Below are positions 20,883 through 52,590 of a stretch of DNA of 64,000 nt, in pieces; the stretch's first letter is position 1; the number at the start of each line of letters is the position of its first letter. The stretch spans positions 248,001 through 312,000 of the forward strand of contig QCLK01000001.1 of assembly GCA_003214615.1 (NCBI GenBank), given 5' to 3'. The stretch is from Pelagibacteraceae bacterium AG-414-E02 (GTDB lineage: Bacteria > Pseudomonadota > Alphaproteobacteria > Pelagibacterales > Pelagibacteraceae). Position numbers and translations under genes: made by a program. The notes under the pieces were generated by a model. It was not told the origin of the DNA. It was given only the letters and a program-made list of their open reading frames with translations, and ran no database searches.

Positions 20883-22982
20883 TTAATATATAATTTTGAA
20901 ATGTTTTTCCATGTCCGCTTTGTCTGTATCATCCCTTTCAAGATGCATAACGGACATTTCTTTTTCTAAAATTTTAATTGGACTCATAACAAATTTTCCA
21001 GTTTGCAGCATAAAAGTTTGAGATAATAGTATAATTTGCATTTGAGGGTTATCATCTATTAATTTCTCACAGTAATCAGCAACCACAGGATCTATTTTTA
21101 GATTTAAAGTTTTAGGACTTTGCAACCTTTGTCGCGCTGATATAAAACCAGAATTTTCAAGGGCTTTCATAACCTCTGGTGATAAACTTAGTGATAGTGC
21201 TCGAGTTCTATCTCCATTTTTATATCTCATAAAATAATTTCTCTCCTTACATATCATAAGTATTTGAGAGGCAATTTTCATTTGTTCTTTTGAAAAAAAT
21301 TGAGTTAAAACCTTTTTAAAAACATTATAGTAAGCATCGTACTGTTCTTGATCTAAACAAATTTTAGCAAAAAAACCTGTATTCAATTTAAGAAATGTTT
21401 CCTCTACTAACAAAGAGTCTTTTATTTTTGGTTTTGATATATGGTCTGCTGCTTTTTCAGGATTTTTATACCATTCTTCTACTGATTTTTTTAATAACCA
21501 ATTTACACTATCCTTAAAAACAGGATCTTTTTTACCTTCTTCAACTAACTTCTCGCAAACCTTTGTAAACTTAATTCCTTTTTTAGTTAAATAATTAACC
21601 AAAGGTAGATGTTCTCCTAGGGTGACGCTAGCAAAGAAAAAAGCTCGAATAGCTCGAAGTTTTAACATTTCGGCTTCAGTCATACTTTTGGTTTCTCGAA
21701 TAGCTTCTTGCAGTTCATAAACAAAGTTACCTTTGTAAAGTCCATAACCACCTTCTATAAAACGATATTTTGTCTTCAAACCAAAACGTTTTCGATGATC
21801 TTCTTCGTCCATTTCAGCACCTGGGAGCATCTGTATTTCTCCTCCAAAAATATGTGTAAGTCCCATGGATAGTGCTTTATCTAAAGATTCCATGTGACTT
21901 TTATATGTTTCTCCTGGAAGACCCACCAAAAGATCTGTTTGGGCTCCATATGAAAATCCTTTTAATTTTTCAATTAAAGAAGATAATTCTTCCGTACGTA
22001 TATTTTTTCTTTTTATATTTTCTAAAACTTTATCGTCTAAACTTTGAAAAGCGATATAGGTATGGGTCAAATGTCCCAAAATTTTTCCAATATCTACCAT
22101 GTGAGGTTTTGCAACTTTTGCCCAGTACATTCGAATACTCGAAAAAGATTTTGTTTTATTGTATAAATTTCTAATGTGTTGGGCGATTTCAACATCTCTC
22201 GGTAAAATACCGAAATTAGCATCTGCTAGTACGATTGCTGATGACTCATACGACGAGTTCGCTACATAAGAAAGTTCGTCTTTAACCCTCTTCATTGAAA
22301 ATCTTAATAGTTTGTTTAAAGCTGATATTCCCCAAATACAAAACGTACAACTAAATGGGCAACCTCTGTTAGTTTCTAAAATAGGGTAATAACCTTCTTT
22401 TAAAAAAGGATCCATTAATCCCGTTAAGTAAGGTGAAGGAACTTCATCTAGATTGTCAGGTTTTGCATAATTAGAATTACCAATTAAACGATTTTTAAAT
22501 ATAGAATAACAACCATTGACTTTGTGTCCTCGCAAAATTTCTGCTGTTCTTTTTCCTTCTGGTTGCTTTAATAAAAATTTTAATATTTCATAAACAGAAA
22601 TTTCTCCAGCAAACATGCAATAGGTATCCACATAGTTATTTTCCCTTAAAAATTCTTCAATTCCTTTTGGATAAGTACGAATGTTGGGTCCTCCCATAAT
22701 TATGGGTAAAGATGGATCTCTTTGTTTTATCCACTGTCCGGCAAATTTCGATAAAGCACTATTCCATGTATAATTTGAGAAACCTATTAAATCTGGTTTT
22801 TTTTTCTCATAAGCGTCTATAAACTTGCTCACAGACTTAAAAAGACAAAACTCTACTTTTTTTCCAAGTTTTGATTTTGCATAAGCGGCAAGATATCCTA
22901 CTCCTGTTGGGGTATACTGGTTTACTTTAAAATAATCGTGAGCCAAATCAGCTAGATAAACTAATAGAACTTTCTTTTTCAT
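20883..22982 (-). CDS. B12-binding-domain radical SAM protein (enzyme A)
   Basis: The 699-residue protein has an N-terminal cobalamin-binding-type domain (about residues 1-140: PTGVGYLAAYAKSKLG, KPDLIGFSNYTWN, IIMGGPN) and then a radical SAM domain whose cluster cysteines are C208, C212 and C215 in GCPFSCTFC. The strand QTDLLVGLPGETYKSHMESL follows as in the family. A long C-terminal part of about 250 residues has no domain I recognise. It lacks DxHxxG, normal for this radical SAM class, so cobalamin would bind without a lower histidine ligand. Many such enzymes methylate unactivated carbons; the substrate here is unknown. It resembles the protein at 59769-61802 in length, cysteine position and the PSPYLTG motif. 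It lies directly upstream of the riboswitch operon. Confidence 0.85.
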   Translation of the reverse strand: MKKKVLLVYLADLAHDYFKVNQYTPTGVGYLAAYAKSKLGKKVEFCLFKSVSKFIDAYEKKKPDLIGFSNYTWNSALSKFAGQWIKQRDPSLPIIMGGPNIRTYPKGIEEFLRENNYVDTYCMFAGEISVYEILKFLLKQPEGKRTAEILRGHKVNGCYSIFKNRLIGNSNYAKPDNLDEVPSPYLTGLMDPFLKEGYYPILETNRGCPFSCTFCIWGISALNKLLRFSMKRVKDELSYVANSSYESSAIVLADANFGILPRDVEIAQHIRNLYNKTKSFSSIRMYWAKVAKPHMVDIGKILGHLTHTYIAFQSLDDKVLENIKRKNIRTEELSSLIEKLKGFSYGAQTDLLVGLPGETYKSHMESLDKALSMGLTHIFGGEIQMLPGAEMDEEDHRKRFGLKTKYRFIEGGYGLYKGNFVYELQEAIRETKSMTEAEMLKLRAIRAFFFASVTLGEHLPLVNYLTKKGIKFTKVCEKLVEEGKKDPVFKDSVNWLLKKSVEEWYKNPEKAADHISKPKIKDSLLVEETFLKLNTGFFAKICLDQEQYDAYYNVFKKVLTQFFSKEQMKIASQILMICKERNYFMRYKNGDRTRALSLSLSPEVMKALENSGFISARQRLQSPKTLNLKIDPVVADYCEKLIDDNPQMQIILLSQTFMLQTGKFVMSPIKILEKEMSVMHLERDDTDKADMEKHFKIIY

Positions 22983-30928: not shown

Positions 30929-31897
30929 CTAAATTGCTAGGTTCTTAGTAATAGTTGTTGCTATTCCTTCAGAATTTAAATTATATTTGTTAAGCAAATC
31001 CAAATACTCTCCTCCTTGAAAATATTTGTCTGGAAGTGAAATTGACAATTGTTTGCTTTTATTTATTAATTGACTATTGGCCTCTGATATAGCACTTGCT
31101 AAGCCTCCGATGACCGAGTGTTCTTCAACAGTTACAATTAATTTTCGGTTTTCAGAATTTTTATTAACAAAGTTAATGTCTAAAGGCTTAATTGTGTGAA
31201 CGTTAATCACGCTGGCTTTTATATTTTGTTTACTCAAAATTTTAGATGCATCGACAGCGCGTGATACCATTGAGCCAGTAGCAAAAATTGTTATATCATT
31301 TCCTTCTTCTAGTTTAATTGGCTTGCCTATTTCAAATTTATAATCATCATTATATACAATTGGATTATTAGCGACTCCAGTAAGTCTAATATAAATTGGT
31401 CCCTTATGTTTTGCGGCCGCAAAAACAGATTTAGCAACTTCTCCGCAATCTGCTGGTGATATTACGGTCATACCTGGTATCGAACGCATTAAAGACAAAT
31501 CTTCAATAGCACAATGAGTAAATCCTAAGGTTCCCAAAGCAACACCACTAGCTATCCCAACCATAGTAACTTTTTTTTTCATGTAACCCAAATTTACTTT
31601 TATTTGTTCAAAACATCGCATTGTTTGGAAAGGTGCAAAAGTTGTCGTAAACACATTGTGGCCTCCTGACGATAATCCAGTAGCAACACCAATAAGATTT
31701 TGTTCTGCTATTCCTACATCAAGATATTTATCAGGATATTTTAATTTAAAACGATCTAAACCAGCAGAGGTAGATACATCTGATGTAAGTACCATCAGGT
31801 TATCAATTTCTTTTGCCAAATCTAAGCATACCATTCCAAAAGTTGCTCTTGAGCCGATCGTTGAAAATAATTTTATCTTTGATTTATCAAGTTTCAT
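30929..31897 (-). CDS. transketolase-like C-terminal subunit
   Basis: The 322-residue protein has the pyrimidine-binding and C-terminal domains of transketolase: RFKLKYPDKYLDVGIAEQNLIGVATGLS, which contains the conserved glutamate, TFAPFQTMRCFEQIK, IAIE-like CAIEDLSLMRSIPGM, and IYIRLT. It matches the second half of the enzyme, with a separate first half encoded by the next gene. The pair overlaps by 4 bases (ATGA). Split transketolases in surface islands are thought to make unusual sugars by C2-unit transfer. Confidence 0.9.
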   Translation of the reverse strand: MKLDKSKIKLFSTIGSRATFGMVCLDLAKEIDNLMVLTSDVSTSAGLDRFKLKYPDKYLDVGIAEQNLIGVATGLSSGGHNVFTTTFAPFQTMRCFEQIKVNLGYMKKKVTMVGIASGVALGTLGFTHCAIEDLSLMRSIPGMTVISPADCGEVAKSVFAAAKHKGPIYIRLTGVANNPIVYNDDYKFEIGKPIKLEEGNDITIFATGSMVSRAVDASKILSKQNIKASVINVHTIKPLDINFVNKNSENRKLIVTVEEHSVIGGLASAISEANSQLINKSKQLSISLPDKYFQGGEYLDLLNKYNLNSEGIATTITKNLAI

Positions 31898-32721
31898 TTT
31901 GATTCAATTTCCTTTAAAGCTTTTTCATATAAAGCTTTGGTCAAAACTGTATGATGAAATTTGTTATTATTTTCTGCGAAAGACAAACCTTTACCTTTAA
32001 TTGTATTTGCTACAATGGCTTTGGGTTTTGAATCAGTTTTTTGTGAAAAAATATCATATAAATCTTTAATATTATGACCATCTATGCTGTGAGCATCCCA
32101 TCCAAAACTACTTATTTTGCTTTTTAAATCTCCTAAACTCATAATATCTTCATTTTTTCCAGTTTGCTGAAGATTATTTTTATCTATTATAATAGTCAAA
32201 TTATCCAAATTGAAATGGGGTGCTGACATCATTCCTTCCCAAATTGATCCCTCGTTACACTCACCGTCTCCGATAATAACGTAAACCTTATTTTCAGATT
32301 TTTTTTTCTTTAATGATATTGCCAGCCCAATTCCAATTGACAACCCCATTCCTAGACTACCTGTAGAAAAATCAATACCATATTTTTCATTTAAAATTGG
32401 ATGTCCTAGTAAAAAACTATCGGTTTTTTCAAAACTTTTTAAATCATCCCTTGAAAAAAAACCTAACTCAGCAAGAACCGCATAATAAACCAAACATGCA
32501 TGACCCTTGCTTAAAATGAAGTAATCCCTATCTTTTTTTGAGAAATTTTCTGGGTTAATTTTAATAAATTCCGTAAATAAAGTTGAAACAATATCAATAC
32601 AAGATAGCGCTCCACCAATATGTGCACTACTTGCTCCAGCATAATATGCAGTGTCAACGACGTTTTTCAATAACTTCTTTTTTAAGCTTTTAATATTATT
32701 AATTTTTGTATCGGTGCTCAT
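31894..32721 (-). CDS. transketolase-like N-terminal (thiamine-binding) subunit
   Basis: The 275-residue protein carries the thiamine diphosphate motif GDGECNEGSIWEGMMSAPHF, with NNLQQTGKN and the earlier HIGGALSCIDIVSTLF and SKGHACLVYYAVLAELG. It is the first half of transketolase; the second half follows with a 4-base overlap, so the two should form one enzyme. About 90 bases upstream, no promoter is obvious to me. Confidence 0.92.
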   Translation of the reverse strand: MSTDTKINNIKSLKKKLLKNVVDTAYYAGASSAHIGGALSCIDIVSTLFTEFIKINPENFSKKDRDYFILSKGHACLVYYAVLAELGFFSRDDLKSFEKTDSFLLGHPILNEKYGIDFSTGSLGMGLSIGIGLAISLKKKKSENKVYVIIGDGECNEGSIWEGMMSAPHFNLDNLTIIIDKNNLQQTGKNEDIMSLGDLKSKISSFGWDAHSIDGHNIKDLYDIFSQKTDSKPKAIVANTIKGKGLSFAENNNKFHHTVLTKALYEKALKEIESK

Positions 32722-35691: not shown

Positions 35692-37401
35692 TTAGGAAGC
35701 GATGTCGGTTATCTGTTCAAATTTATTCTCTGATGGTGAAAAAGCAATGCCAGGTATTAGCTTAAGTTCATTTTCTGAAGGTAATTTATATCCATTTTTC
35801 ATCATTTTACCTACTAGCTCAGTCAAAGTTATTTCGCTTTCACCTAGCATGCAAAGATCTACATTTTTATCTTTTAAGACTTCTTCATAATCTCCTGTTG
35901 GGTATGGACCTCCTAAAAATATAGGAGTTTTAATACCATTGCTTCTCATAGAACTTATTGCTCTATGAACAAAATCTTTATAAAAGGTCATTACACCTAT
36001 ACCAATTATATCTGGCTTAAAGTCTTTTATAATTTTGTTCATCTCCGAATAATTATCAAAATCCAATCCAGATTTAACGATCTTGCCATTAATCTTTTCT
36101 TGATACTCACGGTTCAAGTATGTCAGTAAGGCTATTAATCCTAATGGAGGTTCCATTAATTTTCTTTCCTGTGAATCAGAATCTCCTGAAAAATAACCTG
36201 AAAGATTCATAAGTAGAATTTTTAGGGCATTGGGACTTTTTTTAACTTGAGGAAATTTTTCTCTAATTCTGGCATTCAAATTAGGGATTTTCAATTTTTT
36301 TTCATCTAAAAAATCTTGTTTTTTTAATTCAGATTTGTTGATACGAGCTAATTTCAATAAATCATCAACTGTTTTAACTTTAGTTGGAAAATAACTATTG
36401 TATTTTTGATTAAGTTCATCTTCACAAAAGTTTTTCATTTGATGTGGTAATACCGAAAGCAATCTTTCTTTATTTAAAACATAATCTTTTAAAAAAATTG
36501 TTTTAACAGCTTTTGTAAAATCTTGCGAAAAAGTAAGTGATGGGGCAGTGTCCTCATAAGATATATCTTGGGATTTTTTTATTACTTCATCTGATATACC
36601 TTTTTCTCTAGCAAATTTCTCTAAATCAGTATTTGGAAAAGCCCTCACAGTTAGCAAATAGGGAAAGTGTATCCATTTTAAACTTTTTATAAAATTTAAT
36701 GTCATCATTGCTTCTTCCTCTGTCTCTGTAGGAAATCCATGCATGGCATTTAATCCCAAAACAATATGGGGGTACTTTTCAGTAATGTATCTAGCGTTAT
36801 CATAAAATTTGTCTAGGTTAAGATTTTTTCTCATAACTTTTTGCATTCTAGATGATCCACTTTCAAGCGATATATTTACACCAAGTGCTCCAGCTTCAAC
36901 CATTAAATCAATTCCTTCTTTATCAAGCAAATCTCCCTTTAATGCGCTTGGAAAGAAAAAGTTAAGTTTTAATTTATTTTTTAAAACTAGTCTAAAGAAT
37001 GCTTTGAAATCTTTATCTTTAACGTTAAAAATATCATCAATAAACTCTATTCTTTTTGCACCAAGATCAGCAAGTAGTTTTACTTCTTCAAATATATTAT
37101 CAACTGATCTTCTAAAATGATGTAAGGTTGTCTTGTACACATCGCAATAAAAACATCTGTATGGACATCCCCTTGTTGCTTGCACCGAAACAGAATGTTT
37201 GACACCGGCATGACCTATATATTTATGATAATTTTCGTAATCAACTAAAGATCTGTCATAAAAAGGTAAAGTATCTAAATTATTAATTTGCTTTCTTGCG
37301 CTGGTTTTATAAACAGTTTTTTTATTTATACCATTTGAAAGACCTAAAATTGAACTATTTGGTTTTGTTGTTTTAGGTTTATCCGTTTTAATCAAAGTCA
37401 T
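35692..37401 (-). CDS. domain-permuted radical SAM / B12-binding protein (enzyme C)
   Basis: The 569-residue protein has its domains in the reverse of the usual order. The radical SAM cysteines C79, C83 and C86 (GCPYRCFYC) come early, preceded by the linker-like INNLDTLPFYDRSLVDYENY. The cobalamin-binding-type domain is at the end (about residues 390-569: ALKILLMNLSG, PPLGLIALLTYL, KPDIIGIGVMTFY, IFLGGPYPTG, VDLCMLGESE). The last residues, LIPGIAFSPSENKFEQITDI, resemble the linker that in normal proteins joins the B12 domain to the radical SAM domain. No B12 domain precedes the start: the next gene upstream is 45 bases away. Frameshift or split-gene artefacts should be considered. Confidence 0.82.
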   Translation of the reverse strand: MTLIKTDKPKTTKPNSSILGLSNGINKKTVYKTSARKQINNLDTLPFYDRSLVDYENYHKYIGHAGVKHSVSVQATRGCPYRCFYCDVYKTTLHHFRRSVDNIFEEVKLLADLGAKRIEFIDDIFNVKDKDFKAFFRLVLKNKLKLNFFFPSALKGDLLDKEGIDLMVEAGALGVNISLESGSSRMQKVMRKNLNLDKFYDNARYITEKYPHIVLGLNAMHGFPTETEEEAMMTLNFIKSLKWIHFPYLLTVRAFPNTDLEKFAREKGISDEVIKKSQDISYEDTAPSLTFSQDFTKAVKTIFLKDYVLNKERLLSVLPHQMKNFCEDELNQKYNSYFPTKVKTVDDLLKLARINKSELKKQDFLDEKKLKIPNLNARIREKFPQVKKSPNALKILLMNLSGYFSGDSDSQERKLMEPPLGLIALLTYLNREYQEKINGKIVKSGLDFDNYSEMNKIIKDFKPDIIGIGVMTFYKDFVHRAISSMRSNGIKTPIFLGGPYPTGDYEEVLKDKNVDLCMLGESEITLTELVGKMMKNGYKLPSENELKLIPGIAFSPSENKFEQITDIAS

Positions 37402-37446: not shown

Positions 37447-38187
37447 TTAGTAACCACCTGTTACAAAAATCACTTCTCCGGTGACATAACTTGATAAATC
37501 TGAAGCTAAAAACGCTACTACATCAGATATTTCTTCTGGTTCAGCTGGACGTTTTAGAGCCACCTTCTTTATGGCCTCATCAATAATTTTTTTCGAAATA
37601 TCTTTTCCCATCATACTTGTATTGGTTAATCCTGGGGCTACAGCATTTACTCTGATGTTAAAACTTCCTAATTCTTTAGATAATACTTTTGTAAAAGCAA
37701 TCAAAGCTGCTTTGCTGGCCGCATATCCCGATCTTCCAACATCACATTCCACAGCAGCATTAGATGAAATATTTATTATTGAGCCTTTTTTATTTTTTAT
37801 CATAATTTTCATTAGTTTTTGCGTTAATTGTAAATGGGAGAAAAAATTTATATCAAAAATTTCTTTCATTTTTTCGATTGGAGTCATTTGAAATAAGGAC
37901 ACTTGATTTACTCCCGCATTGTTCACAATAATTTCTATCTTATCTGATATTGTATTAATTTTTTCTATGCCATCCTTTATTTCTTTTTCCCTTGATAAAT
38001 CAAAATAAACTGGGGTAATTTTATTTTTGTACTTTTGAGAAATATCAAATATTAATTTTTCAAATTCGTCATTTTTGCTTCTGGCACAAGCTATGATATC
38101 CGCTCCATTTTCAGAAAATTTTTTTAAAATTGAAAGACCAATCCCTCTGTTGGCTCCTGTTATCAACGCTAATTTATTTTTAAGCAT
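37447..38187 (-). CDS. SDR family 3-oxoacyl-ACP reductase-like protein
   Basis: The 246-residue protein is a classical SDR: LALITGANRGIGLSILKKF, NNAGVNQVSLFQM, INISSNAAVE, and the catalytic YAASK, with a C-terminal SYVTGEVIFVTGGY. It is most like FabG. The ATG at 38187 is preferred to a TTG one codon upstream and overlaps the previous stop by one base (TGATG). In context it would reduce a 3-oxo group on the acyl chain carried by the adjacent ACP. Confidence 0.88.
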   Translation of the reverse strand: MLKNKLALITGANRGIGLSILKKFSENGADIIACARSKNDEFEKLIFDISQKYKNKITPVYFDLSREKEIKDGIEKINTISDKIEIIVNNAGVNQVSLFQMTPIEKMKEIFDINFFSHLQLTQKLMKIMIKNKKGSIINISSNAAVECDVGRSGYAASKAALIAFTKVLSKELGSFNIRVNAVAPGLTNTSMMGKDISKKIIDEAIKKVALKRPAEPEEISDVVAFLASDLSSYVTGEVIFVTGGY

Positions 38188-39092
38188 CAATTTATTTTAC
38201 TTCTTGTAGTTGAACCATATCCAAAACTTGCTTTTGCTGTCTGCAAAATAACAATATCCCTTGGATCGCCTTTTTTAAATGCTCTTCTGCCATGCATAAA
38301 TCTTTTATTGTCTATCATTAATAAATCTCCTTTTTCCCATTTATGTTCATAAGTAAGTTTGTTAGCTTTAGTTTCTATTTCACTTAAAATATTTTTAGGA
38401 ATTTCTTTTCCATCGGCCATGCTTCTTTTAATTAATTGAGGTTCTGTATCTAAACCAGGAAGTATGTCGTTTGCAAAGCAAAGGTTGCCTGAAATTCTTC
38501 CTTCATGAACAGCAAATTTTAGTAACACGACATGAAATATACCGGTATCCCAATCTATGTATCCATTGCCCGCTCCTACACTATTTAATAGCCACGGACG
38601 TTTACCTTTATTTTTTTTTTTTTCACCTATTGGAATTTCAAGCTCAAAACGCATTGGATTTTGTAAAAAAAAATTCTTTGTTTCAACTGACAAAACATTC
38701 CAAAGTTTTACACCATCACAAAGAATTGTGGCTCCACCATTTTGTGGCGGGACATTGCAATAAAACCAAATTAGTTCTGGCCATGCCGGTGCAAAACTTG
38801 CTTCACTGTGAAGCAAAACTTCTTTGACTCCTTCATCAACATTACGTATGGGTTTTTTGTTAAATCGAACCTTACGACGTATAGCGTCTACTGCATAAGT
38901 CTCTGTAAATCGATCTGTTATATCGGTTAGTTTTTCTGGTTTAATATTAAATTTCTTAAATAAAATTAGGCCAGTTTTTTCAAATAAAGAAACTACCTTC
39001 GAGTAAGACAAATCCTGTATCTTGGAATTTATTTTTTGAGTAACAATAGCTCCCCCGTCTTGGAATAAATTACTGATTATTTTTTTTTCCAT
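38187..39092 (-). CDS. TauD/TfdA family iron/2-oxoglutarate dioxygenase
   Basis: The 301-residue protein has the metal-binding H95-x-E97 in LLHSEASFAPAWPELIWFYC and the distal histidine in NKRFMHGRRAF, with GATILCDGVKLWN between. These are features of TauD/TfdA hydroxylases, including those acting on carrier-tethered substrates, such as the SyrP type. The last residues overlap the ketoreductase gene by one base. It probably hydroxylates an acyl or amino-acyl group of the carrier pathway. Confidence 0.85.
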   Translation of the reverse strand: MEKKIISNLFQDGGAIVTQKINSKIQDLSYSKVVSLFEKTGLILFKKFNIKPEKLTDITDRFTETYAVDAIRRKVRFNKKPIRNVDEGVKEVLLHSEASFAPAWPELIWFYCNVPPQNGGATILCDGVKLWNVLSVETKNFFLQNPMRFELEIPIGEKKKNKGKRPWLLNSVGAGNGYIDWDTGIFHVVLLKFAVHEGRISGNLCFANDILPGLDTEPQLIKRSMADGKEIPKNILSEIETKANKLTYEHKWEKGDLLMIDNKRFMHGRRAFKKGDPRDIVILQTAKASFGYGSTTRSKIN

Positions 39093-39471: not shown

Positions 39472-40530
39472 TTAGACAAAATCTTCTTTTGAAAATATAT
39501 CTTTTGCTAAAGCTGGCTTGAATATACTTTGACCACTTTTAGTCATAAATTTTTTAATAAACTCCTTATCTTCGCCTGCTAGGCATAAATTGCTATGATT
39601 TCTGAAATATTTAATGCTAAACCCATAATCAACTATTTCCTTGAGCGAATTTTTAAATATGTTTCCTATTTTTATGTGAACATAAGGACAAACTAAAACA
39701 TCTCCTATAGGAGTTATGTATAGTCTGTTAACTGTGGTACAGCCTAAAATTTTCTCATTATTTTTATCAAATGGATTCCAAATATTCCTTACAAGATTCT
39801 TGTATTCTTTCCTTATTTTTCTTAAATATTCCCTGTCTTTGTCATCACAAATAATGTCAGTCATTTTTTGCCACATACCAGAAGGTACGGCTACATTTAA
39901 TAATGTTTTATATTTTTTATTTTTTGAATAATCCAATAATTGTTTAAAATGATCAGTATTAGCATTGTAGTGTCCGACTGTTATATTTAAATAAGGATCC
40001 ATACCAGCATTCTTAACATGCTCTAATCCTTCGATTGCCCTTTTCCACGAATCTTTTCTTCCCCTTATTTCGTCATGTATTTTTTCATCCATGCTGTCAA
40101 TGCTGACTGAAACTCTACTTACTTTATACTCTGCAAGTTTTTTAGCCATGACTTCATCTAAATGGTATCCATTAGTTGTTAAATATAGATAAAATCTTTC
40201 AGGTTTAATTGCTTCGAGTACTTCAAATAATTTATCGGGTTGCAAAAGTAATTCTCCACCTTGCAGATCAAATTCAAAATAACCTAATTCATCAGCATCA
40301 TCTGCTAATTTTCTTATTGCTCCAATGTCTAAGTATTCTTTAACATGATCTCCTTTGGGAGAATTGGTAAAACAATACTTACATCTTAAGTTACACGCGT
40401 TATTAAAATTTAAATCAATACCTCTGGTCTTCGTGCCAACTTGTCCATTATTTTTTTGAACATAAGAATAAAAATCTTTCAGCTTCTTGACTAGTTTAGG
40501 TTTATTAAGCAATGATGAAGATATAGGCAT
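39472..40530 (-). CDS. radical SAM/SPASM domain protein
   Basis: The 352-residue protein has the radical SAM cysteines C46, C50 and C53 in CNLRCKYC and the glycine-rich FDLQGGELLL. A later ILGCTTVNRLYITPIGDVLVC region and the C-terminal NLCLAGED supply SPASM-like cysteines. Its ATG overlaps the stop of the FabZ-like gene by one base (TAATG). In context it may dehydrogenate or rearrange a carrier-bound or sugar intermediate. No precursor peptide gene is seen beside it, so a RiPP role is less likely. Confidence 0.85.
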   Translation of the reverse strand: MPISSSLLNKPKLVKKLKDFYSYVQKNNGQVGTKTRGIDLNFNNACNLRCKYCFTNSPKGDHVKEYLDIGAIRKLADDADELGYFEFDLQGGELLLQPDKLFEVLEAIKPERFYLYLTTNGYHLDEVMAKKLAEYKVSRVSVSIDSMDEKIHDEIRGRKDSWKRAIEGLEHVKNAGMDPYLNITVGHYNANTDHFKQLLDYSKNKKYKTLLNVAVPSGMWQKMTDIICDDKDREYLRKIRKEYKNLVRNIWNPFDKNNEKILGCTTVNRLYITPIGDVLVCPYVHIKIGNIFKNSLKEIVDYGFSIKYFRNHSNLCLAGEDKEFIKKFMTKSGQSIFKPALAKDIFSKEDFV

Positions 40531-40979
40531 TATCTAACTGTATATTTTTTTATTTTTTCTGGCAAGACCAGTGTAAATTCTGCCTTACATGCTAATTTAT
40601 CATTAACTGTTCCAACTCCTTCACACTTTCCAATCCCTCTATTCCATGATTTAAGTTTAGTTTTAAGATACAATCTATCTCCAGGAACAATTTTTCTTTT
40701 AAATGTAATTTTGTCAGCAGAAGCCAAATAAACAACTTTTCCTTTGTTGTTAGGTAGTGTCAAGATAGTTAATGCAGCCATTTGAACCATAGCCTCTATT
40801 TGAAGCATGCCTGGAACATTAGGATCTGTTGGCCAATGAACTTTGAAAAACCAATCATCTTTTAAATCTTTAAATCCATTTGCAATTTTTCCAGGAATAA
40901 CCTCATCAACATAATCTATAAAAAGATAAGGGTGCCGATTTTGTTGATATTCGTGAATTCCTTTTAAATCTAATTTCAT
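40530..40979 (-). CDS. FabZ-like 3-hydroxyacyl-ACP dehydratase (hotdog)
   Basis: The 149-residue protein shows the hotdog active site: H16 in NRHPYLFIDYV and E62 in VPGMLQIEAMVQMAAL. This matches FabZ dehydratases, with fair divergence elsewhere. It lies between the SPASM gene and the LuxC-like gene, with a 6-base gap to the latter. With the ketoreductase and ACP it gives a fatty-acid-type elongation or dehydration cycle, although no ketosynthase is in the window. Confidence 0.85.
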   Translation of the reverse strand: MKLDLKGIHEYQQNRHPYLFIDYVDEVIPGKIANGFKDLKDDWFFKVHWPTDPNVPGMLQIEAMVQMAALTILTLPNNKGKVVYLASADKITFKRKIVPGDRLYLKTKLKSWNRGIGKCEGVGTVNDKLACKAEFTLVLPEKIKKYTVR

Positions 40980-40985
40980 AGGTTT

Positions 40986-42179
40986 TTAATAAAAATCAAT
41001 TACTCTTGTAAGCTGTTTTTCAATATTATAACCATCCCATACAAAACCAAGATTATGCGATGATCCAATTGGAACAGCACGATCGATACCACTTAAATTA
41101 TTTAAAATAACAAAATCCTTAAGCTCTTTTTTACTTAAACCAAAGTAAGCTAAAGTTTGGAATTTTTGAGTAATAGAATGTTTAATTTTGTCTAAAATAT
41201 TACAATCAAATTCGTAAAAATAACCGAATTTATTGTTTAGCTTATGAACATTTTCATCTAATTTATTTATTTGCATCCTGTAAATTAAATTTTCATAATT
41301 CTGAAAATTTTTTATAAAATTATATTTTATTAAATCTTCACATGCGCTTGAATATTTTTCTATTATATTTGCAGGCTCTAATAAATACTTTTCTTTAACT
41401 ATTTTAAACAGTTCCTTCCAAAACTTTTCTTTTGCAAATTTATTTTGTTGTCTTGAACCTAACCAAATTATTAAATGTGGAGAAGAACATGCATTCTGAT
41501 CCATAAAATAAGTGTCATTATAAAACCCTCTAATAGTTTTTTGTAATAAATCACTATTACATTTGTTAATAGAGCTGGACTTAATTATACAAAAAGAATA
41601 TCTGTCTGAAAAAAAAATATCTTTAGTTCTTGGTTTCGTTTTAAAGCTTTTTAATACTTCTATGGTTTTGTCTCCTCCCCAAACCATTCTGCCATCTGCT
41701 TTTAAGGACAACTGCTGGGTCAAAATTTTGTTATCCGAATTGTATTTAAAAAATAAATTTTTTTTAATAATGTTTTTAAATCTCTTTATTTTTACAATTT
41801 TTTTAATTGCTTTACAAAAAATATCTATTTGCAAAAAGTTTTGTGAAGGTAGTTTAACAAGATTAGAATTGCCTGTTAGAAAACCAAAGGCAAATGAATA
41901 TGCAAAATTTAAAGGAACATTTGATGGAGTGACATGAAATACACATCCTAAACCTACCCTTGTTTCTGAACTTGAATATTTTTTTTTTAAATTTTCTATG
42001 TTTTTCTTTCTGCACCAAAAAGCAAAGGAAATTATGTCAGAAAATTTTTTTGCTTCTCTATTAGACATCAATTCTTTTGAAAGCTGATCTAAAAAATCAA
42101 TCTCTAGGCTGCCAAATGGCAAACTAGGCTTAACTAAAAACTCTTTTTCTTTTCCGATTAAAAATTTTATTTTATCCAT
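40986..42179 (-). CDS. LuxC-like acyl-CoA/acyl-protein reductase
   Basis: The 397-residue protein belongs to the LuxC family of NADPH-dependent acyl reductases that turn an acyl thioester into an aldehyde. The nucleotide-binding region has VFHVTPSNVPLNFAYSFAFGF (about residues 80-100), and the acyl-accepting cysteine is C231 in DQNACSSPHLIIW. It is shorter than luminous LuxC proteins (about 480). It lies 3 bases from the LuxE-like gene, the usual partner. There is no luciferase (luxA or luxB), so light production is not implied. Confidence 0.85.
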   Translation of the reverse strand: MDKIKFLIGKEKEFLVKPSLPFGSLEIDFLDQLSKELMSNREAKKFSDIISFAFWCRKKNIENLKKKYSSSETRVGLGCVFHVTPSNVPLNFAYSFAFGFLTGNSNLVKLPSQNFLQIDIFCKAIKKIVKIKRFKNIIKKNLFFKYNSDNKILTQQLSLKADGRMVWGGDKTIEVLKSFKTKPRTKDIFFSDRYSFCIIKSSSINKCNSDLLQKTIRGFYNDTYFMDQNACSSPHLIIWLGSRQQNKFAKEKFWKELFKIVKEKYLLEPANIIEKYSSACEDLIKYNFIKNFQNYENLIYRMQINKLDENVHKLNNKFGYFYEFDCNILDKIKHSITQKFQTLAYFGLSKKELKDFVILNNLSGIDRAVPIGSSHNLGFVWDGYNIEKQLTRVIDFY

Positions 42180-42182
42180 GTT

Positions 42183-43244
42183 CTAAACGTCGCTGCAACC
42201 TCTTAACTCAGTATTTTTGGCCCTTCCATGAACTAAAAAATGTTTTCCTTTTAATCCACATTTACAATCATCCTCTCCAATTATTTCTCCTACGTCTTCG
42301 GTCAAAATATTATGTCCTGGATAGCTAGTTGGTAATAAAGATAAAAGCTGTATTAATCCTCTTTGACCATTTTTGACTATGTTAAACTTTTCATCCCTGA
42401 TTAAAATATCTGAAAAAATAGAAGTTATAAAATGTCCACACTTACACTCTAAAAATATTGATCCAGTTTGTTCTACCAAACCATAATAATTATGCACATT
42501 TACTAATTTCAATTTATCAAATAATTTTTGTTTAAATATTTTATTACTAACCTTTAATGCTTCTAATTTTTTCCATCCTCCTCCATGGAGTAAAATTCCC
42601 TTATTAAAATTATAATTTAATAATTTTGTAGACATTTTTTTAATTAAATTTTCGTAAATTAAGCTTGTGAAACCAAAAATAAGAAATTTTTTATTACCAT
42701 TTTTTTCTAAAAAACTATTTAGCGTTTTATAGTCAATCTCAAAATTTTTATTTAAAAGATAACTGTGTTCTTTTCCAAATATTGAAAATCCAAATATCGC
42801 TACTGCCCTTGCATTTAAAACTGATTTTTCATTCAATCTTGGATTTTGATCAACAATTAACATTGGCAATCTTTCATTTCCTAGCAAAGTTGACATAATT
42901 TTATTTAATGCTCTTTTTTGATTATTTGCATTTTCTTTATCTAAATAGATTTTTGATGGTAACTGCCCCGTTGTTCCAGAGGAAACAAGTCTTTTTATTA
43001 TCTTATTTTCAGATACACTTTTTAAATCAAAATTTTTAAAGATTTTAGTAGGTAAAAATGGATAATCTAAAAGTTCATTATTTTTTCTATTTTTAAAATT
43101 GAAACCATTTAAAATTTTATTGTATTCCTTGCATTTTTTTCTGTGAAAATTTGTAAGGTTTTCAATACCTTTACTGAAATAAACTTTTTTATCTTTCTTG
43201 TTAAATTTATAGGGATAAATTTCAAATAACTCTTTGTGTATCAT
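42183..43244 (-). CDS. LuxE-like acyl-protein synthetase
   Basis: The 353-residue protein resembles the LuxE/PaaK acyl-protein synthetase family. The ATP-binding SSGTTGQLPSK lies at about residues 88-98, followed by the YYGLVEQTGSIFLECKCGHF region and LTEDVGEIIGEDDCKCGLKGK, with cysteine pairs that could bind a metal. It activates a fatty acid with ATP and hands it to LuxC as an acyl group. The gene overlaps the AMP ligase by 23 bases. Confidence 0.82.
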   Translation of the reverse strand: MIHKELFEIYPYKFNKKDKKVYFSKGIENLTNFHRKKCKEYNKILNGFNFKNRKNNELLDYPFLPTKIFKNFDLKSVSENKIIKRLVSSGTTGQLPSKIYLDKENANNQKRALNKIMSTLLGNERLPMLIVDQNPRLNEKSVLNARAVAIFGFSIFGKEHSYLLNKNFEIDYKTLNSFLEKNGNKKFLIFGFTSLIYENLIKKMSTKLLNYNFNKGILLHGGGWKKLEALKVSNKIFKQKLFDKLKLVNVHNYYGLVEQTGSIFLECKCGHFITSIFSDILIRDEKFNIVKNGQRGLIQLLSLLPTSYPGHNILTEDVGEIIGEDDCKCGLKGKHFLVHGRAKNTELRGCSDV

Positions 43245-44658
43245 TAACCAATCCTTTTATTTTTAATAATTCAATCAATTTACCATAAGATATCTTTCCA
43301 TTATTATTGATAGGAAATTTTTTTAAGGTTAAAATTTTATAAGTTTTTTTAGGTATGTTAGCAAAATCTTTAAGATTTAAATTTTTATTTTTACAAAAAA
43401 TGTAAATCTTTTCATCGACAGCAACGCAAGCTATAGATTGCTGATTGGTATTAATTTTTTCCTCTATATAATCAAGATTAATTCTATAACCATAAACTTT
43501 AATAAATCTGCTCTTTCTTCCTGTAATAAAAAAAATTTCATTTTTATCCTTAACAGCTAAATCTCCGGTTTTAAGCTCTGAAATATTATCAAATGAATTT
43601 AATTCATTACAGCTTTTGGCGTACCCTCCAAAAACATTTTTTCCCTTGTATATTAATTCACCTTCTACATTTGCTTTGTTAATTAAAGAGCCGCTTTCAT
43701 CTTTCAGTAGTATTTTTCCCCCGGAAATTGGTTTTCCAATTGGAATCATTTTAGATTCTAAATCTTTCTTTTTAACTTCATGGTATGAAATTCTAGGGCT
43801 TGCTTCTGTTTGACCGTACATTAAATAAAAGGAAATATCATTTTGCAAACATTCTTTTGCAATTTCTTTAAATATTTTATTTTTAATTTTTCCTCCAGCT
43901 TGAGTTATAAATCTTGGTTTGTTTTCTAATATTCTCTCAGCTCCAATCTTTTTTAATATTTCATAAAAAAAAGGGACTCCGTTTAAATTTGAGGGTTTAG
44001 TATAGTTGTACAATTTCCAAAAATTTTTATCTACCAAACTATGGTTATTTAAAACAATACTTGCTCCAGAAATTAAATGGGAATTAATTATTGAAAGTCC
44101 ATATGAATAACTCATTGGCATAGTAGTAATGGAACAATCTTTAGAATTTAAATTTAAATAAGAAATTATGGACTGAGTGTTTGATGTCATATTTTCTAAA
44201 GAAAGCTTCACAAATTTTGGCTCCGATAAACTTCCAGAAGTACTAAGCAAAAGCATTAATTTTTCATTGATTTTATAGAAGTTGCTTTCTTTAATTTGAA
44301 ACAAATTAAAATTTTTAAAAGAATGAATTAAATGAAATAAATTTTTCTGGATTTTTATTTGATTTTTTTTTGAGCAAAATATGTATTGGGGTCGAAATTT
44401 TTCTACCAAAATTTTTAAATCATTCTTTGTTATATATGGGTCTAAAACCATAACTGGATTATTCGATCTCAATAAAGAAATATAGCCACACAATGACTCT
44501 ACACAATTTTCTGAAATTAAAATTGAAAGAGAGTTTGTTTTTATTTTTTTTTGAAATTCGCTAGAAAAACTTAAAATGTCTTTATAGGAAATTTTATTAT
44601 TGCTATCAATAATCAGTGCAATATTATTTTTATGTTTCTCAATGCTGTCAAAAAACAT
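43222..44658 (-). CDS. AMP-dependent acyl ligase (ANL superfamily)
   Basis: The 478-residue protein has the P-loop LLLSTSGSLSEPKFVKLS at about residues 137-153, the A5 motif YGQTEASPR, and TGDLAVKDKNEIFFITGRKSRFIKVYGYRI, with a C-terminal lysine in the expected GKISYGK. ANL enzymes activate carboxylic or amino acids and load them on CoA or a carrier. With a dedicated ACP and a LuxE-type synthetase nearby, it probably loads the ACP at the start of the pathway. It overlaps the LuxE-like gene. Confidence 0.88.
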   Translation of the reverse strand: MFFDSIEKHKNNIALIIDSNNKISYKDILSFSSEFQKKIKTNSLSILISENCVESLCGYISLLRSNNPVMVLDPYITKNDLKILVEKFRPQYIFCSKKNQIKIQKNLFHLIHSFKNFNLFQIKESNFYKINEKLMLLLSTSGSLSEPKFVKLSLENMTSNTQSIISYLNLNSKDCSITTMPMSYSYGLSIINSHLISGASIVLNNHSLVDKNFWKLYNYTKPSNLNGVPFFYEILKKIGAERILENKPRFITQAGGKIKNKIFKEIAKECLQNDISFYLMYGQTEASPRISYHEVKKKDLESKMIPIGKPISGGKILLKDESGSLINKANVEGELIYKGKNVFGGYAKSCNELNSFDNISELKTGDLAVKDKNEIFFITGRKSRFIKVYGYRINLDYIEEKINTNQQSIACVAVDEKIYIFCKNKNLNLKDFANIPKKTYKILTLKKFPINNNGKISYGKLIELLKIKGLVNDTQRVI

Positions 44659-48341: not shown

Positions 48342-49352
48342 TTAAAATATATCTTGCTTTCTTATTTGATGATCTTTTTTAAAATTTTTTTTTAATCTTT
48401 TTTTAATTATCATATAAATTTTTTGACCATTGAGACCAGTACCTGGTCTTTTCATAATAATATCTTTCTCATTTATTATTTCTCCGCGTTTCATTGATCT
48501 TTTGAGCGTTATACTTTTTCTACCTACACGTCGCATTTCTCTTTCTTCTAATTGACATTTTTTTTGGCCATCGCCAAGCATTGTTTCTGCCTCTCTTATT
48601 GTTTTAACAAAAATTGAAAATTCTTTAGGATTTAAAGAAGCTTTATGGTCTGGACCTGGTAAATTTTTATTTAGCGTAAAATGTTTTTCTATTATAGTTG
48701 CTCCTAAACCTACCGCCAAAACCGCAGCTGAATTTCCCTCGCTATGATCAGAAAAGCCAATTGGTAAGTTGAACATTTTTTTTAATTTTAATATTGTTTT
48801 TAAATTCAAACTTTTTGATGAACAAGGATAGTTTGAGACACAATGAAGTAAAGTTATGTTTGATATTTTTTTCTTTTTGTAATATTCCACAGTTTTTTTA
48901 ATCTCCGGAACTTCTGCCATACCAATAGATAAAATCAATGGTTTTTTAGTAGAACGGATTTTTTTATGTAAAATCATATCAACTAAATCTGCAGAAGCTA
49001 TTTTGTATCTTTTAACTTTTAATTCTTCTAATAATTCTACACTTTTAATATCGTATGGTGTCGAAAGAAACTCAATTTTATTTTTATCGCAATATTTTTT
49101 TACTTCTTTAAAATCCGATCTTTTTAATTCTAATTTCTTTATCATTTCATAATGGCTTTCTTTTTTATTTGTACTAAGCAATTGATATTTTGCTTTCTTG
49201 GTATTAGATTTTACAAATTCTTCAGCAAAAAAAGTTTGAAATTTTACTATATCCGCGCCACATTTAATTGCTTCTTTAATCATTTTCTTAGCCAAGCGAA
49301 CGTTTCCGTTATGATTGACTCCAATCTCAGCTACTATTGTTATTTTTTTCAT
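48342..49352 (-). CDS. neuB: N-acetylneuraminate/legionaminate synthase
   Basis: This 336-residue enzyme condenses a HexNAc-type sugar with phosphoenolpyruvate. The N-terminal barrel has ITIVAEIGVNHNGNVRLA, ADIVKFQTF, NKIEFLSTPYD, and the metal-site LLHCVSNYPC and GFSDHSEG. IIEKHFTLNKNLPGPDHKAS is typical, and a C-terminal SAF-type domain (MKRGEIINEKDI, RPGTGLNG) follows. A second synthase, PseI, lies at 51547-52590, so two different nonulosonic acids may be made. Whether this one makes neuraminic or legionaminic acid cannot be decided. Confidence 0.9.
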   Translation of the reverse strand: MKKITIVAEIGVNHNGNVRLAKKMIKEAIKCGADIVKFQTFFAEEFVKSNTKKAKYQLLSTNKKESHYEMIKKLELKRSDFKEVKKYCDKNKIEFLSTPYDIKSVELLEELKVKRYKIASADLVDMILHKKIRSTKKPLILSIGMAEVPEIKKTVEYYKKKKISNITLLHCVSNYPCSSKSLNLKTILKLKKMFNLPIGFSDHSEGNSAAVLAVGLGATIIEKHFTLNKNLPGPDHKASLNPKEFSIFVKTIREAETMLGDGQKKCQLEEREMRRVGRKSITLKRSMKRGEIINEKDIIMKRPGTGLNGQKIYMIIKKRLKKNFKKDHQIRKQDIF

Positions 49353-51546: not shown

Positions 51547-52590
51547 CTATTTAAGCATGCTCCATTTTAGAGCTGTCCCTTTTTTTAATTTTTTATTCAC
51601 TTTTCTGCCTAACAATTCTTCATAATATTTTGGCGCTAGTCCCAATCCTGGGCGAATTATTCTTAAATTGTCTACTGTAAGTTTTTCATCAACATTAATA
51701 TCTTTTACGATATAGATTGATCTACGAAATTTTAACCCTTCTTTTTCTGACTCCGTTACCCCATAAAAAATTTTTCCAAGAGATTGCCAAGCACGTTCTG
51801 ATTCTTCTACCAAAATTTTTAATTCACTAGGATTGATTGAAAAGCTTGAATCAACCCCACCGTCATTTCTGTCTAGAGTCAGATGTTTTTCTATAATCGT
51901 CGCTCCATGTGATATCGCCGCTAAAGCAGCTCCTATTCCCAAAGTATGATCTGACAATCCAACTTCACAATTAAATTTTTTTCTTAAGTCTGGAATTGTT
52001 AAAATATTGCTATTTTCAGGTGATGCTGGGTATGAACTTGTGCATTTTAGAAGTGCAAATTGACTGCAGCCTCCATCTTTCAAAGCTTGTATGGACTCCT
52101 TAATTTCTAATTCGGTAGCTAAGCCAGTTGAAATTATTACTGGTTTGCCAGTACTAGCAACTTTTTTAATTAGCGGTAGATGCACATTTTCAAATGAAGC
52201 AATTTTATAAGCCGGTACATTTAGTTTTTCTAAAAAATCAACAGCAGTTTCATCAAAGGGAGAGCTAAAACAAAGTATTCCAAGTTCATTTGATCTTTTG
52301 ATAATTTTTTCGTGCCACTCCCATGGAGTGTGAGCCTGCTTATAGAGATCATACAAACTTTTTCCTTTCCATAAACTTTTTGAATTGTTTATAAAAAATT
52401 CATTATTTTTAGAATTTATTGTTATAGTGTCGGCCGTATATGTCTGAAGTTTTAACATATGAGCTCCAGCTTTCGCAGCTGCCTCAACAATTTTTAGCGC
52501 TCTATCTAAAGATTGATTGTGGTTACCAGACATTTCGGCAACTATAAAAGGTTTATTTTCTCTCGAGATTGTGTAATTTCCAATAATCAT
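51547..52590 (-). CDS. pseI: pseudaminic acid synthase
   Basis: The 347-residue enzyme condenses 2,4-diacetamido-2,4,6-trideoxy-altrose with phosphoenolpyruvate. PFIVAEMSGNHNQSLDRA, HMLKLQTYTADTITI, GILCFSSPFDETAVDFLE, CTSSYPASPEN, GLSDHTLG, and IIEKHLTLDRNDGGVDSSFS are all PseI-like, as is the C-terminal SAF-type domain with RPGLGLAPKYY. It lies downstream of pseB, pseC and pseF. The pathway is clear even though PseG is not seen. Confidence 0.93.
   Translation of the reverse strand: MIIGNYTISRENKPFIVAEMSGNHNQSLDRALKIVEAAAKAGAHMLKLQTYTADTITINSKNNEFFINNSKSLWKGKSLYDLYKQAHTPWEWHEKIIKRSNELGILCFSSPFDETAVDFLEKLNVPAYKIASFENVHLPLIKKVASTGKPVIISTGLATELEIKESIQALKDGGCSQFALLKCTSSYPASPENSNILTIPDLRKKFNCEVGLSDHTLGIGAALAAISHGATIIEKHLTLDRNDGGVDSSFSINPSELKILVEESERAWQSLGKIFYGVTESEKEGLKFRRSIYIVKDINVDEKLTVDNLRIIRPGLGLAPKYYEELLGRKVNKKLKKGTALKWSMLK

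Follow-up and report, generated by a model that had tools for sequence, protein, structure and literature searches.

A circularly permuted radical SAM–B12-binding protein of SAR11 with relatives inserted in NRPS adenylation domains

Class-1 cobalamin-dependent radical SAM enzymes, in which the B12-binding domain comes first, use one SAM to methylate cobalamin and a second SAM for radical chemistry; not every cobalamin-dependent radical SAM enzyme is a methyltransferase. The class-1 enzyme CysS takes a pantetheinylated substrate (PMC12846815). Among the cobalamin-dependent radical SAM enzymes characterized so far, Mmp10 is described in a recent review as the sole one to have its cobalamin domain at the C-terminus, and the DUF512 proteins are alike in this respect (PMC13331322). 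In nonribosomal peptide synthetases (NRPS), the inserts known from interrupted adenylation (A) domains are ordinary SAM methyltransferases and also oxidase and ketoreductase domains; the insert of TioN, between a2 and a3, S-methylates its amino acid, and with M-domain inserts at a2–a3 and a8–a9 the amino acid is methylated after loading onto the T domain (PMC11355689). DscE is a stand-alone radical SAM C-methyltransferase that acts on discodermin peptides in trans (PMC12858407).

The protein described here is encoded in a 64,000-nucleotide stretch (the window) of a 1.14-Mb SAR11 (Pelagibacterales) genome and has the following features.

35692..37401, minus strand: circularly permuted radical SAM–B12-binding protein, 569 aa (ORF, Pfam, AlphaFold2, rotation scan)
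37312..37401, minus strand: residues 1–30, poorly conserved tail (alignment; AlphaFold2 confidence <50 at 1–27)
37252..37311, minus strand: residues 31–50, KTSARKQINNLDTLPFYDRS, second half of the canonical B12-to-SAM linker (alignment; L118 counterpart)
36688..37179, minus strand: Radical_SAM domain, residues 75–238 (PF04055, E 7.8e-22)
37144..37167, minus strand: CxxxCxxC cluster motif CPYRCFYC, residues 79–86 (sequence)
36238..36588, minus strand: helical region, residues 272–388, now linking the SAM domain to the B12 domain (AlphaFold2, rotation scan)
35728..36237, minus strand: B12-binding Rossmann-type domain, residues 389–558, Pfam match 418–529 (PF02310, E 4.4e-11; AlphaFold2)
35692..35757, minus strand: C-terminal end IPGIAFSPSENKFEQITDIAS and stop, last B12-domain strand and first half of the canonical linker (alignment, L118)

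The open reading frame (ORF) runs uninterrupted from ATG to stop, and Pfam found Radical_SAM ahead of B12-binding, both exceeding the cut-off (for PF02310, 43.1 bits vs 32.1). An earlier note on this DNA, made from the letters alone, had described the domain order as reversed, with the cluster cysteines at residues 79–86, a B12-binding-type domain in the C-terminal part, four relatives in the window with B12 first and both termini in the usual inter-domain linker. Pfam, the sequence itself and an alignment with L118, the closest canonical-order protein, bear this description out at every point, the B12-first paralogues being those at 20883, 32813, 58170 and 59769. AlphaFold2 gave a confident model (pLDDT 85.1, pTM 0.85; low confidence at residues 1–27 and 559–569) in which strands and helices alternate in the B12-binding domain. 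The linker of L118 reads ..IEGLAVRSDKGIRLTPPRPLITDLDTLPPPDHSA.., while the window protein ends in ..IPGIAFSPSENKFEQ.. and, past the low-confidence tail, starts with ..KTSARKQINNLDTLPFYDRS..; both termini map to the canonical linker, which is to say that the linker is split mid-way. Judging from the alignment, residues 31–50 are the fold's new N-terminal end, and residues 1–30 before them include an ILGLS.. stretch resembling a second linker copy. Residues 272–388 are mostly without counterpart in canonical-order relatives. No NCBIfam equivalog model was reached at its own cut-off (the PhpK P-methyltransferase model TIGR04479 gave 109.6 bits against a cut-off of 600), and Pfam gave no DUF512 match at E 0.01.

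Circular permutation was examined by a rotation scan, in which profiles from 65 distinct homologous units were rotated at many cut points and scored against canonical-order proteins. The closest such relatives found were L118, whose genome belongs to the same phylum set, and L036 (6118–7338; Zixibacteria), which has the signature FPTETEEEAMMT in common with the permuted family. The best-domain score for L118 rose from 222.4 bits in native order to 325.0 bits on rotation at the join, and that for L036 from 199.7 to 297.4 bits; gains were also seen for L108 (122.0 to 164.4), a paralogue from the window's own genome (92.7 to 146.9) and the 58170 protein, the relative that the earlier note had picked out for comparison (88.9 to 122.4), and there was none for the 32813 protein (40.6 to 41.5). 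The rotated profile was colinear with residues 3–444 of L118 and 3–397 of L036. The score was flat for joins within residues ~272–392, the stretch mostly missing from canonical proteins, and fell when the cut entered either domain, down to 159 bits for L118 with a cut inside radical SAM. Against NCBIfam models, rotation of the window sequence brought a small gain (PhpK 109.6 to 115.2 bits; BchE 65.3 to 69.9), and rotation of the Pseudobacteroides L028 unit a larger one (KedN5 64.8 to 81.3; BchE 77.6 to 93.0). These gains, which amount to 103 bits (L118) and 98 bits (L036) and are lower for more distant canonical proteins, indicate that both halves most likely come from one canonical protein. 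With the same order in 65 distinct homologues, this upholds what the note had proposed: the window protein is a true circular permutation. The route suggested there was tandem duplication followed by loss of the outer halves, and no B12-SAM-B12-SAM intermediate was seen. The permutation is not visible by fold search, because fold search aligns in sequence order; the window protein aligned well in its SAM part only, with AprD4 as top structure match.

Some 85,000 species genomes were scanned, which yielded 28 loci. Free-standing homologues in permuted order were present in six SAR11 records at 61–80% identity, the note having proposed a search for them in related genomes, and the nearest relatives outside SAR11, at 41–49% identity, were likewise permuted. 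Apart from the canonical-order L036 and the free-standing L024 (Desulfobacteraceae), the remaining non-SAR11 loci lay in long NRPS-type open frames of up to ~4,000 aa, from Aminicenantes, Acidobacteriota, SAR324, Bacteroidales, Clostridia, Spirochaetota and other hosts. Among the 65 distinct full-length units, 57 lay within NRPS-type ORFs and eight were free-standing, namely seven from SAR11 and the one from Desulfobacteraceae, which has a possible A-domain relic. Whole-genome searches at E 1e-50, with partial matches counted, gave 34 in one Aminicenantes genome, the 10.4-Mb assembly CS4-C025 (G247), and 19 in another, Ww63 (G250); the loci of these two genomes (L014–L035, L053–L098) contain very many NRPS modules with the radical SAM/B12 insert. 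By contrast, the unit was found in 1 of 247 genomes of the Aminicenantes phylum and in 1 of 247 of the SAR11 order (E 1e-60). Viral contigs held no relative, on which ground a viral origin was rejected, and plasmids gave a single distant radical SAM match (28% identity over half). Radical SAM residues were invariant throughout the permuted family, with the cluster cysteines invariant or nearly so; in L018 / L065 the first of them is replaced by tyrosine (TRGYPYNCAYC), a copy that may be inactive.

The NRPS-type relatives are inserts between a2 and a3 of recognisable A domains. In L018, L020, L027 and L029, Pfam found the AMP-binding domain split into two halves flanking the unit; the two longer ORFs also encode condensation and carrier domains. 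Upstream of the ~530-aa radical SAM/B12 unit lies the a2 region (LKAGGAYLPIDP.. to ..LLT) and downstream a3 (TSGSTGxPKG). An a3-like motif is retained in 49 of the 57 NRPS-type copies; the eight without it have a host A domain that is either degenerate or cut off. For a Herbinix module (L025), AlphaFold2 modelling with the insert in place gave pLDDT 84.8 and pTM 0.76, and the model aligned across the insert to ordinary A domains in the PDB, with a target-normalised TM of 0.88–0.95 for several. A complete A domain is thus predicted around the permuted unit, and the two ends of the unit must meet in one host loop. Two further observations concern the hosts. In L056, L081, L085, L095, L072 and L090 the A domain lacks a3 and looks degenerate, with the cysteines of the radical SAM unit kept. 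In L028 (8440–9680), L032 (8497–9730), L021 (7310–8550) and L030 (5126–6370), a second insert of ~340 aa lies between a8 and a10 and resembles WbuX/PseA N-acetyl sugar amidotransferases (TIGR03573, E 5e-20 to 1e-27; ATP-pyrophosphatase type fold), such that a single A domain holds both the radical SAM/B12 unit and an amidotransferase-like domain.

In a careful tree the permuted proteins grouped together, apart from their two closest canonical relatives, with support of 100/100, suggesting a single permutation event, and the base of the group was a comb. The unit may have been free-standing first, as in SAR11, and have been captured later by an NRPS A domain. The canonical relatives L036 and L118 are themselves free-standing, and in an AU test with one canonical outgroup the tree with SAR11 as first branch, beside that outgroup, was not rejected (p-AU 0.974) and beat the free quick-search tree. 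On the other side, quick trees nest SAR11 among the NRPS-embedded copies, close to L024 and L027, and decay is under way in some host A domains; we consider a free-standing origin quite possible, if somewhat short of an even chance. Release from an NRPS is hinted at by the decaying host A domains together with L024, whose N-terminus weakly matches an A-domain a2-side profile (i-Evalue ~3e-5 in a search of few sequences) and which adjoins an ORF for an uninterrupted A domain. The window protein is a free-standing ORF, and the A-domain profile found no relic in the SAR11 copies. Since most relatives are embedded in NRPS A domains, an alternative reason for the permutation suggests itself: it brings both ends to one linker, which would suit insertion in a host loop with neither fold disrupted.

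As for function, the window protein, which is the free form of the NRPS-embedded unit, is best read as a cobalamin-dependent radical SAM enzyme with a class-1 Rossmann B12 domain, and probably as a methyltransferase acting on carrier-protein-bound substrates. Cobalamin binding, methylation and substrate are inferred from the family. By its pattern, one SAM would methylate the cobalamin, a second would give the 5′-deoxyadenosyl radical, and the methyl group would then be passed to an unactivated carbon. A carrier-bound substrate would follow the logic of TioN and the M domains, and that of CysS: in the NRPS units it would be an amino acid or peptide on the adjacent thiolation domain, and in SAR11 a substrate on a nearby acyl carrier protein (ACP), made by a discrete set of AMP-ligase, LuxE, LuxC, FabA-like and SDR proteins, with a product perhaps headed for a nonulosonic-acid surface glycan. 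The genes concerned lie in the window as follows.

30929..32721, minus strand: split transketolase, N and C genes, belonging to the same shared set
37447..38190, minus strand: short-chain dehydrogenase (SDR), also present in L101, L103 and L105
39151..39393, minus strand: carrier-protein-like ORF, 80 aa, EWDSIGHMSLI motif (sequence; conservation)
39472..44658, minus strand: radical SAM/SPASM, FabA-like dehydratase, LuxC, LuxE and AMP-binding ligase, common to SAR11 genomes with the permuted protein

The 80-aa ORF had no Pfam or NCBIfam match at the thresholds used; its motif and its 63–65% identity in three other SAR11 genomes point to a putative ACP. Those three genomes share the AMP-ligase, LuxE, LuxC, FabA-like, radical SAM/SPASM, SDR, split transketolase and ACP-like genes, ~3–20 kb from the permuted gene. 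The SPASM marker occurred in 5 of 6 genomes with the permuted gene vs 18 of 247 in the SAR11 order, and 17 of 18 sampled marker-bearing genomes lacked the permuted gene. The L011 genome is without the marker and has another ACP-like ORF directly downstream of the permuted gene. In three SAR11 genomes several kb separate the permuted gene from the ACP set, on opposite strands in two of them. The link between gene and set is an association, and both may merely be parts of one variable surface-glycan island.

Several other features of this neighbourhood were observed. The SPASM protein itself (39472–40530), for which no curated name was reached, is mostly 79–92% identical across the 18 of 247 SAR11 genomes holding the gene, and its neighbours are far less conserved (~37–65%). 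Two different nonulosonic acid synthases, NnaB (48342–49352) and PseI (51547–52590), exceed the curated cut-off in one island, and a PseC-like gene is also present in the window. Beside the permuted gene of L010 (3715–5936), two ORFs resemble, by eye, phosphonopyruvate decarboxylase and an iron alcohol dehydrogenase; a phosphonate pathway was considered from them and dropped, as it was not seen as a shared context.

The two synthases and the PseC-like gene, and the fact that AprD4 acts on an aminoglycoside precursor, would fit a surface-glycan enzyme whose substrate is a sugar or nucleotide sugar and is not carrier-bound. The NRPS homologues are located in carrier-protein assembly lines, however, and an ACP gene set lies nearby, and we regard a glycan enzyme as unlikely. 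A wider reading stands at about even: that the embedded units define an undescribed NRPS A-domain class whose circularly permuted, cobalamin-dependent radical SAM unit works in line to C-alkylate carrier-bound amino acids by radical chemistry, that this class has expanded to dozens of copies in some Aminicenantes, with a second, WbuX/PseA-like (ATP-pyrophosphatase) insert in the same A domain of certain modules, and that the SAR11 unit is a free enzyme for an ACP-based pathway.

The domain order might also have come from an independent fusion, in which a radical SAM protein acquired a C-terminal B12-binding domain from elsewhere and no canonical protein was ever permuted. A C-terminal cobalamin domain is able to arise by other routes, as in the Mmp10/DUF512 class (PMC13331322), but the gain on rotation is ~100 bits for L118 and L036 vs 33–54 for canonical proteins that are less related, one and the same canonical lineage is closest to both halves and the linker is divided in its middle, which makes fusion very improbable. 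An error of sequencing or assembly, or a frameshift in a canonical gene, which the note had named as what would restore the usual order, has nothing found in its favour. It is ruled out because the reversed order recurs in six SAR11 records besides the window, obtained from separate cells or assemblies, and also in the 57 NRPS-type copies, leaving a chance that is close to nil.

No description of radical SAM domains in interrupted A domains, or in circularly permuted form, was found in full-text searches of mostly open-access papers, and the novelty of both is provisional. The permuted unit represents a second, apparently unrelated way to a C-terminal cobalamin domain, here with a class-1 fold. 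Close canonical relatives can be set directly beside it, so that nature offers a way to test whether the connection of the domains bears on the meeting of cobalamin and cluster. Should the NRPS units be functional, they would serve as modules for in-line radical C-methylation, located at a site where interrupted A domains have already been engineered, and would point to bacteria that are for the most part unstudied as rich in pathways of this kind.

Compared with known systems, the window protein has the CxxxCxxC radical SAM and PF02310 B12 domains of class 1 (TsrM, OxsB, TokK, CysS and, by sequence, PhpK and BchE), and both its halves are matched in the class-1-like, canonical-order L036 and L118; in class 1, B12 is N-terminal to SAM, an order that circular permutation has reversed here. 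The C-terminal position of the cobalamin domain is shared with Mmp10 and DUF512 (class 2), whose domain is 4-stranded and CFeSP-like (PMC13331322), whereas that of the window protein is a PF02310 match with class-1 kin, indicating that the order arose differently and ruling out membership of class 2. The interrupted A domains of TioN and MarQ carry their insertion at a2–a3, the same site as in the homologues and presumably likewise for in-line tailoring, but the known inserts are ordinary SAM methyltransferases, besides oxidase and ketoreductase domains (PMC11355689), whereas that of the homologues is a radical SAM/B12 unit and the window protein is free-standing. DscE ties radical C-methylation to NRPS pathways, as the NRPS-embedded units would; unlike them, it is a separate protein and is not embedded.
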